A DNA stretch of 64,000 nucleotides from an uncultured Lachnospiraceae bacterium (lineage in GTDB: Bacteria; Bacillota; Clostridia; Lachnospirales; Lachnospiraceae), in assembly GCA_947565425.1 (NCBI GenBank), contig CANOFW010000002.1, positions 62,001-126,000 on the forward strand. The letters are read 5' to 3'. Made by a program: the position numbers and the translations under genes. Position 1 is the first letter of the stretch. Each line of letters starts with the position of its first letter. Shown here in pieces: positions 56,670 to 58,019 of the stretch. The notes under the pieces were generated by a model. It did no database searches. It was not told the DNA's origin and saw only the letters and a program-made list of their open reading frames with translations.

Positions 56670-56745
56670 TCCTCCTTGTTTCCCTATGGTATTTCCCTCC
56701 CCCTTCATGGAGGAGGGACATGGCGCTGCAAATCCGTTTGCGCGC
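56670..56745 (-). promoter_or_regulatory. flagellin leader with two putative CsrA-binding sites
   Basis: In RNA sense (minus strand), site 1 is a hairpin (56745-56723) with stem GCGC-GCAAA / TTTGC-A-GCGC presenting CGGA in its loop, an ideal CsrA target. Site 2, ACAAGGAGGA (56679-56670), overlaps the flagellin Shine-Dalgarno. The pair mirrors the BS1/BS2 arrangement known in the Bacillus hag leader. A further stem CCCTCC/GGAGGG lies between them (about 56695-56719). Confidence 0.65.
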
Positions 56746-56784
56746 ATTTATAATAAGCAAAGCCCCTAGGTTAGCCTTGCATTA

Positions 56785-57122: not shown

Positions 57123-57152
57123 TGCAACACTTTGCTGACAAATGTTACATTT
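57123..57152 (-). repeat. left inverted repeat (IR-L) of the invertible segment
   Basis: A 30-bp site starting TGCAACAC and ending GTTACATTT, whose reverse complement matches 57866-57895 at 28 of 30 positions, including an identical asymmetric centre (GCTGAC here, GTCAGC there). Each site also has internal dyad symmetry, as expected of a tyrosine-recombinase core site. It lies 42 bp upstream of csrA. Confidence 0.88.
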
Positions 57153-57198
57153 AAGCAAAGTGGGCAAGCCCGCTTCAACTACCATGGAGGAATATCAT

Positions 57199-57777
57199 AT
57201 GAGCAAAACAGAACCGATCCGCAAGAACTGGCAATTAACTGAATTTAAAAATTATTACCGGAAAACACATCCCAACCCCCGAAATTATGCGCTAATTATA
57301 TTCGGGCTTAATACGGCGCTGCGCATCAGCGACATTCTAAATACCACCTGGGGCATGGTATATGACTTTGAAAACAGCCATTATCTGGAACACTTATATT
57401 TACAGGAACAAAAAACCGGGAAAAATACAGTTGTACCGCTAAACAACGCAGTCACCGAAGCGCTGGAACTTTTGAGAACCGTCGGCAACTGTCGGGAAGC
57501 AGACTTCCTTTTTCCCAGTCAGAAAGCGCCCCAAAAACCTATCAGCCGCTGTCAGGCATACCGCATTGTGAAAAAAGCTGCTATCGAAACGCAACTGCCA
57601 GAGCACATTAGCTGTCATTCCCTGCGCAAGACTTTCGGCTATCATGCCTGGAAAAACGGTACGCCCCCCGCTCTTATCATGGATATTTTCAATCACTCAT
57701 CCTATCAGATTACGAAACGATATCTTTGCATTGAACAAGACGAAAAGGATGATGTATTTCTGGGGATAGATTTATGA
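57199..57777 (+). CDS. FimB/FimE-like tyrosine recombinase (DNA invertase candidate)
   Basis: A 192-aa catalytic-domain-only tyrosine recombinase, the size of FimB/FimE (about 200 aa), lacking the N-terminal core-binding domain of phage integrases. Catalytic residues are visible: Arg I in NTALRISDILNTTW, Lys in LQEQKTGKNTVVPL, His-x-x-Arg in ISCHSLRKTFGYHAW, the second His-type position in IFNHSSYQITKRYLCI, and the nucleophilic Tyr in the same segment (KRYL). The start at 57199 is set by GGAGG 8 bases upstream; an earlier in-frame ATG at 57142 lies inside the left repeat. No phage or conjugative genes surround it. It lies inside a pair of inverted repeats next to csrA-flagellin, so flagellar phase variation is the likely role. 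Confidence 0.92.
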   Translation: MSKTEPIRKNWQLTEFKNYYRKTHPNPRNYALIIFGLNTALRISDILNTTWGMVYDFENSHYLEHLYLQEQKTGKNTVVPLNNAVTEALELLRTVGNCREADFLFPSQKAPQKPISRCQAYRIVKKAAIETQLPEHISCHSLRKTFGYHAWKNGTPPALIMDIFNHSSYQITKRYLCIEQDEKDDVFLGIDL

Positions 57778-57822
57778 AATTGAGAGATAAAGAAAAAACT
57801 CAGAAAAATTTATAATTTGCTA

Positions 57823-57849
57823 TAAAGAATTCAAAATTTGTACCGATAT
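57823..57849 (+). promoter_or_regulatory. sigma-D/sigma-28 flagellar promoter facing out of the invertible segment
   Basis: TAAA (57823-57826), 16-bp spacer, CCGATAT (57843-57849), an exact match to the Bacillus sigma-D consensus TAAA-N15/16-CCGATAT. Transcription would start about 57857 and cross the right inverted repeat away from csrA. After inversion it would read towards csrA-flagellin. Confidence 0.8.
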
Positions 57850-57865
57850 AGATTGTGTAATTAAA

Positions 57866-57895
57866 AAATGCAACATTTGTCAGCAAAATGTTGCA
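57866..57895 (+). repeat. right inverted repeat (IR-R), also a terminator-like hairpin
   Basis: Partner of 57123-57152 in inverted orientation. Arms ATGCAACATTT (57868-57878) and AAATGTTGCAT (57886-57896) are exact complements around the 7-bp asymmetric centre GTCAGCA. Flanking A and T runs extend the stem to 57863-57901, so it can also act as an intrinsic terminator for the recombinase gene. Confidence 0.88.
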
Positions 57896-58019
57896 TTTTT
57901 TGTGTTGAAAACGTGAATTCTAATTGGGAAATTTGCGGATTGTATTTTTTCGTAATCCCCTTTCCCGCATTGATATTTTGCAACAGCCTTCCACAAAATA
58001 TACTCAGACTCTAAAAAAG

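Follow-up and report, generated by a model that had tools for sequence, protein, structure and literature searches.

A csrA-flagellin pair of an uncultured Lachnospiraceae bacterium is preceded by a recombinase gene and a flagellar-type promoter lying between inverted repeats, which raises the question of whether this segment inverts and, if so, what its inversion would switch. The locus was analysed within a stretch of 64,000 nucleotides (contig CANOFW010000002.1, assembly GCA_947565425.1), hereafter the window. An earlier note on this DNA had proposed that a tyrosine recombinase operates a promoter switch laid out like that of Hin, with the recombinase and promoter inside the segment and the flagellin and a regulator outside, and this layout was recovered. 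From sequence comparison, the locus is very probably a self-contained phase-variation cassette comprising a tyrosine recombinase, a promoter inverton, and an extra flagellin with a second CsrA, termed CsrA2 (Table 1).

Table 1. Features of the flagellin cassette (positions counted from the first nucleotide of the window).
Feature	Position	Strand	Basis and remarks
Invertible segment	57123..57895		OFF orientation; 0.77 kb; bounded by paired sites; equivalents in L043 and L235 run opposite to those of sister loci
Proximal recombination site (csrA side)	57123..57152	+	25-nt core 57124-57148; arms GCAAC/GTTRC; centre the same as in the distal site
Distal recombination site, inverted copy	57866..57895	-	Arm pairing; arms-only site comparison
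Tyrosine recombinase, 192 aa	57199..57777	+	PF00589, E 1e-26
Sigma-28 (FliA/SigD)-type promoter, TAAAGAATTCAAAATTTGTACCGATA	57823..57848	+	Just inside the right arm; directed away from csrA2-flagellin
Distal site with flanking T-run, terminator-like hairpin	57863..57901	+	Predicted to be read in the OFF orientation only; fold -17.9 kcal/mol
csrA2, divergent CsrA, 98 aa	56785..57081	-	PF02599, E 1.8e-16; basic C-terminal extension
CsrA-type hairpin GCAAA-CGGA-UUUGC in flagellin leader	56728..56741	-	GGA-loop hairpin scan
Terminator-like hairpin with AACCUAGG loop, csrA2/flagellin gap	56757..56780	-	Fold; related sequence in other leaders
Alternative flagellin under the switch, 479 aa	55223..56662	-	PF00669, PF00700

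The two arms are 30 nt long, agree at 28 of 30 positions (93%), are separated by 713 nt, and stand first among the 18 inverted pairs listed in 5 kb; each is also a palindromic site on its own (arm-centre-arm). The recombinase reported between them in the earlier note is confirmed by its PF00589 match. Its start is likely 57199, where GGAGGA lies directly 5' and where relatives also start, and an alternative in-frame ATG at 57142 (211 aa) falls within the arm. To the left of the segment, csrA2 starts at a distance of 41 bp and is followed by the flagellin on the same strand. The promoter, also seen earlier, fits the sigma-28 consensus of Butyrivibrio (TAAA N16-17 MCGATAa; PMC3720852), and one FliA gene over the cut-off was found in the window's genome. 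A sigma-70 scan returned five weak matches (2.6 expected), none of them on the csrA2 strand inside the segment or before it on the csrA2 side. Sigma-28 would presumably drive the segment promoter. Because this promoter lies within the segment and is directed away from csrA2 and the flagellin, the locus had correctly been read as OFF; by computation, inversion would place the promoter at 57170-57195 on the minus strand, about 90 bp before csrA2.

To place the locus in a family, 29 genomes of the genus, which includes Eubacterium sp. 14-2 and Petralouisia muris, were searched for csrA2. The search gave 49 matches in 21 genomes, and the genomic context of all 49, and of 14 further rows found outside the genus, was examined. 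Leaving out the second csrA copy of three tandem arrangements (L041, L043, L045; csrA2-flagellin-csrA2-flagellin behind one switch) yielded 60 cassettes. A single genome carries up to seven csrA2 genes (G025, six of them with a called switch), and others carry six (G018) or four (G013, one of them ON). In some cassettes the segment is a mini-inverton spanning 0.18-0.45 kb, and the recombinase lies outside it (L119, L120, L132, L135) or is absent from the fetched stretch (e.g. L228-L230, L232, L234, L240).

Comparison of the recombination sites points to site-specific exchange within each cassette. The 27-nt core occurs exactly twice, at no more than three mismatches, in the 3.36-Mb genome of the window, and a reversed control gave no copies. 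Across the family, the sites consist of conserved arms (GCAAC...GTTGC) flanking a centre of 6-8 nt, and the proximal site was found by its arms alone in 43/60 cassettes, with the duplicate entries of two tandem rows left out. The centres showed zero mismatches in all 40 pairs with arms of at least 12/16; the remaining three pairs (L227, L236, L238) have poor arms. In this test, both sites were picked by arms only, since an earlier selection had demanded identical centres and had thereby partly built in the absence of mismatches; the arms-only repeat gave the stronger result. Between loci, centres were identical in 3% of comparisons, with 23 different centres among 33 loci, and wherever a genus genome has at least two 25-nt pairs (seven genomes), all its cassettes differ in centre. 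On the sequences compared, identity within pairs combined with difference between cassettes is the signature of recombinase crossover sites, and such private centres would prevent recombination between cassettes.

The orientation of 56 of the 60 cassettes was assignable, and for 53 of these a site pair was found as well; the repeats described in the earlier note are conserved as a pair. The calls comprise 54 OFF cassettes (Petralouisia muris and Eubacterium sp. 14-2 are represented among them) and two ON cassettes (L235 and L043), at one assembly per species and with many of the assemblies being metagenome bins; four cassettes have no call (L139, L227, L231 at a contig edge, and L238). Three OFF calls (L134, L147, L236) were based on the promoter, with no full site pair found, L150 was called with an additional weak promoter match in the other direction, and L124 and L125 are near-identical. 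The opposite orientations among relatives that the earlier note had suggested looking for therefore exist. The ON segment of L043 (786-791 bp; 0.79 kb) aligns in minus to four OFF relatives at 73-75% identity, while its csrA-flagellin and a stretch of 33-43 bp containing the distal site match the same four in plus. In L235, the promoter end (about 90-110 bp) aligns in minus to L237, L144, L133, L138 and others, and the csrA-flagellin aligns in plus; for this cassette, the 5 kb fetched contain no recombinase, and the promoter match carries two mismatches. Both orientations thus occur, with the comparison lying between species, as both ON cases belong to species other than that of the window. 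The OFF bias could mean rare or one-way switching, and would fit a default OFF state, an ON-to-OFF bias, or growth conditions alike.

The promoter is a regular component of these segments, as expected of an inverton whose inverted sites bound a promoter. A match was found in all 43 segments with a 25-nt pair (22 perfect, 10 with one mismatch, and 11 with two mismatches of 10), compared with 2/43 equal-length csrA-side stretches taken from the csrA start and 137/860 shuffled segments. In the shuffles, the best match had one mismatch in 25 cases and two in 112, and the two-mismatch class is therefore weak on its own. The two sites also differ in what lies behind them: at least six T occur within 10 nt beyond the distal site in 39/43 pairs and beyond the proximal site in 2/43. 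In the window, the distal hairpin has a z of -4.8, with 0/200 shuffles as good, versus -9.5 kcal/mol, z -1.7 and 13/200 for the proximal hairpin; a consensus terminator scan did not list the distal one. The stronger distal fold and the T-run asymmetry suggest that one site could end transcription in the OFF orientation and let it through in the ON orientation, and we infer that the distal hairpin with its T-run acts as a terminator in OFF only. According to this scheme, the internal recombinase would recombine the two flanking sites and invert the 0.77-kb segment. When OFF, the promoter would fire outward into the distal site, where an RNA hairpin and U-run would stop the transcript; when ON, the same promoter would read through the proximal site, with no U-run behind it, into csrA2 and the flagellin.

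The enzyme is a PF00589 tyrosine recombinase and not the serine recombinase of a Hin-type switch. K75, H140, R143, H166 and Y175 are kept in 76/76 aligned rows and R42 in 74/76 (a gap in two), so that the conserved catalytic residues R-K-H-R-H-Y of tyrosine recombinases are present; the protein was also aligned with the XerA-like 4a8e. With the NCBIfam "tyrosine-type DNA invertase" models PRK09870 and PRK09871, which we take to be FimB/FimE-type invertase models, it reached 36.2 and 49.7 bits, below their cut-offs (221 and 222). At E<1e-55, a threshold chosen after seeing the data, a close recombinase occurs in 21/21 genus genomes with csrA2 and in 0/8 without. Its position and this co-occurrence suggest that the recombinase within the segment is what inverts it. 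Several OFF cassettes have no recombinase in the fetched stretch (e.g. L228-L230, L232-L234, L237, L240), which indicates that the pairing of enzyme and site is not strict.

Relatives of the recombinase were also observed in other settings. The gene is represented by two ORFs overlapping by 4 nt in L165:3975-4555 (the L081 locus), L166:3694-4274 and L080:116-696, at the same place in different genomes, with split matches also in G017; this may reflect a frameshift or a split protein. Further relatives lie between long inverted repeats (L049:343-1160, L057:3841-4776, L058:3884-4721), with no csrA, flagellin or sigma-28 match found nearby, and are possibly switches of other loci; L049 adjoins ORFs judged by eye to be NusG-like and export-like. 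Additionally, a sister switch with the same recombinase family but a different site, AATGTAACC..GGTTACATT, was found at L113:3926-4756, L115:4042-4837, L165:3871-4690 and L166:3595-4562. Together with a sigma-28-type promoter, this switch is flanked by two divergent ORFs whose starts resemble signal peptides. On one side, a polysaccharide deacetylase with choline-binding repeats is encoded at all four loci; the other side, at the three loci where it was examined, carries Big_2 (L113, L166) or a weak transglutaminase-like match (L165), and inversion could choose between two surface proteins.

What the cassette would switch depends on the other flagellins of the genome. The window's genome has nine PF00669 matches, one of them a FlgL-like gene and two of them genes with internal stops (G000:C37:3358-3765 and G000:C2:200255-200668; L102, L103). 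A flagellar cluster elsewhere contains a FlgL-like gene, fliW, csrA1 and fliD; it also encodes a flagellin of 270 aa, served by its own sigma-28 promoter in the correct orientation, and csrA1 and csrA2 are the two csrA genes of the genome. Given this ordinary flagellin with fliW and csrA1, the window locus is best read as an alternative flagellin with a second CsrA and not as a motility switch.

The CsrA domain of CsrA2 scores 60.3 bits against a Pfam cut-off of 27, while the NCBIfam CsrA equivalog models gave 31.9 and 26.4 bits, under their cut-offs of 73 and 70.1; by these scores, CsrA2 is a divergent CsrA paralogue. Among 59 aligned proteins, L4 and R44 are invariant, and position 6 is V, L or I in all 59 versus R in CsrA1, a change that might alter RNA binding; the basic C-terminal extension is common to most relatives. 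A GGA-loop hairpin, mostly GCAAA-CGGA-UUUGC, is present in 56/59 cassette leaders compared with 540/2950 shuffles; four rows without a flagellin start (L127, L236, L238, L239) are excluded, and covariation was counted on hairpins already selected for pairing. When 38 flagellin leaders were sorted, 24 carried GCAGC-AUGGAN-GCUGC, the main class, 12 carried the cassette hairpin, and two carried neither (L225, L252). As GGA hairpins occur in both classes, flagellin translation is probably CsrA-controlled in both. Assigning a target to CsrA2 from leader motifs was abandoned, because both flagellin classes carry such hairpins and the main one occurs also in genomes without csrA2. In the gap between csrA2 and the flagellin, the AACCUAGG-loop hairpin has related sequence in some main-flagellin leaders and is a possible attenuator or riboswitch-like element; Rfam gave no family at gathering score in seven loci with leaders, and sub-threshold matches only in the window stretch.

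The role of CsrA2 is where an alternative reading has the most weight. CsrA2 may be a homeostatic partner of its own flagellin only, leaving the main flagellin untouched, so that ON cells make mixed filaments; we put its chances somewhat short of even. The conserved GGA hairpin of the cassette leaders differs from that of the main flagellins, and csrA2-flagellin pairs have been duplicated as a unit (L041, L043, L045), as this reading would have it. However, the main leader also has an AUGGAA hairpin, and in Salmonella the alternative flagellin is paired with a repressor of the resident one, FljA accompanying FljB. Moreover, in the related csrA-tldR loci, OspCsrA enriches the 5'UTR of another fliC, with a GGA-type motif in a flagellin leader (PMC13418256), and by analogy with this case it is plausible that CsrA2 silences the main flagellin. 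Most likely, CsrA2 would bind GGA hairpins in flagellin leaders, damping the main flagellin and/or balancing its own. Building on the self-contained cassette, we tentatively propose a fuller account whose chances are appreciably below even: in Lachnospiraceae of this genus, a repertoire of up to seven default-OFF flagellin cassettes with private centres, in which turning ON would bring a new flagellin together with CsrA2 silencing the main one. The outcome would be serial, mutually exclusive filament swapping, convergent with Salmonella fljBA but relying on a tyrosine recombinase and on a CsrA-family translational repressor, with a recombination site doubling as an orientation-dependent terminator.

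The earlier note had expected ON/OFF motility, with the cassette flagellin decisive and OFF cells non-motile. In its favour, both the N and the C domain of the cassette flagellin are typical, and the gene has a sigma-28-type promoter of its own. Nevertheless, other uninterrupted flagellins exist, one of them in the flagellar cluster beside fliW, csrA1 and fliD, where a sigma-28 promoter faces it correctly; moreover, 54/56 called cassettes are OFF, those of the named strains Petralouisia muris and Eubacterium sp. 14-2 among them. This expectation is therefore quite unlikely to hold, and the switch would instead select an extra flagellin alongside the ordinary one. The same predominance of OFF calls (54/56) would be explained if the recombinase and sites were relics of a dead switch frozen in OFF. 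Such a fixed state appears quite improbable in view of centres that are identical within pairs yet diverge between loci, of catalytic residues and promoters that are kept, and of two ON cases. Finally, a mobile element with ends beside flagellin genes by chance, suggested by the integrase family, several copies per genome and recombinase copies away from csrA2 (e.g. L108, L116, L131), is very improbable, as a promoter switch was called upstream of 45/49 genus csrA2 matches, the sites are inverted and not direct, and the close recombinase accompanies csrA2 (21/21 vs 0/8).

The phase-variation cassette combines traits of several known systems. Salmonella Hin is a serine recombinase with an enhancer, encoded inside the inverting segment together with the promoter of the alternative flagellin; in fljBA, the flagellin comes first in the operon, and the co-transcribed post-transcriptional regulator, FljA, is not a CsrA. 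The cassette shares with it the recombinase in the segment, the alternative-flagellin promoter and a co-transcribed post-transcriptional regulator, but it has a tyrosine recombinase, a CsrA as regulator, and csrA2 before the flagellin. E. coli FimB and FimE are tyrosine recombinases of about 200 aa that invert the fimS promoter segment, with their genes outside it, and serve fimbriae; the size and type of enzyme and the inverted promoter segment are alike, whereas here the recombinase gene lies within the segment and the target is a flagellin. The inversion directions of FimB and FimE are stated in PMC5386303. According to the same paper, the RecV switch of C. difficile, located upstream of the early flagellar operon, measures 154 bp, has repeats of 21 bp and acts after transcription initiation, and RecV also inverts the cwpV switch (PMC5386303). 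The two share a tyrosine recombinase, inverted repeats and flagellar phase variation in Clostridia, but the RecV switch, as presented there, governs motility as a whole and not an extra flagellin. Bacteroides fragilis Mpi, as cited there, is one recombinase acting on several invertible capsule promoters that have a core consensus in common; in both cases, one genome has several such promoters serving alternative surface structures, while the crossover centres here differ between cassettes of one genome.

The closest described system is the hin-csrA-tldR-fliC locus of Oscillibacter and Flavonifractor (PMC13418256, 2026), in which a FliA-dependent promoter lies on an inverted stretch upstream of csrA loci linked to flagellin; in Flavonifractor plautii, the inversions span about 120 bp and hold this promoter. 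Both systems place an invertible FliA-type promoter before csrA and flagellin in gut bacteria. There, however, a serine hin lies beside the stretch of about 120 bp and there is an RNA-guided TldR repressor, whereas here a tyrosine recombinase lies inside a 0.77-kb segment; the PF07282 (TnpB-type) profile found no match in the window's genome, which is 92.9% complete, and would miss a TldR without that domain. The comparison suggests that an alternative flagellin with its own CsrA is a recurring theme. The view in the earlier note that no described system matches thus gives way for the csrA-flagellin promoter switch as such, which is already known with serine hin, and stands for its tyrosine-recombinase version. 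Among open-licence PMC papers, a set outside which most subscription papers and all preprints lie, no tyrosine-recombinase csrA-flagellin switch or multi-cassette repertoire was found. What appears to be new is the tyrosine-recombinase form and the multi-cassette repertoire.

Flagellins of gut Lachnospiraceae are immune targets, and antibodies to gut flagellins in Crohn's disease are a topic of the literature. Genomes in which promoter inversion keeps nearly all of several flagellin genes OFF would account for silent flagellin genes and would change how flagellin content is read from metagenomes. They would also make it possible to test cleanly whether commensals use flagellin variation to handle phages or host antibodies. 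The cassette would be a case of the well-known Hin layout realised with a tyrosine recombinase.
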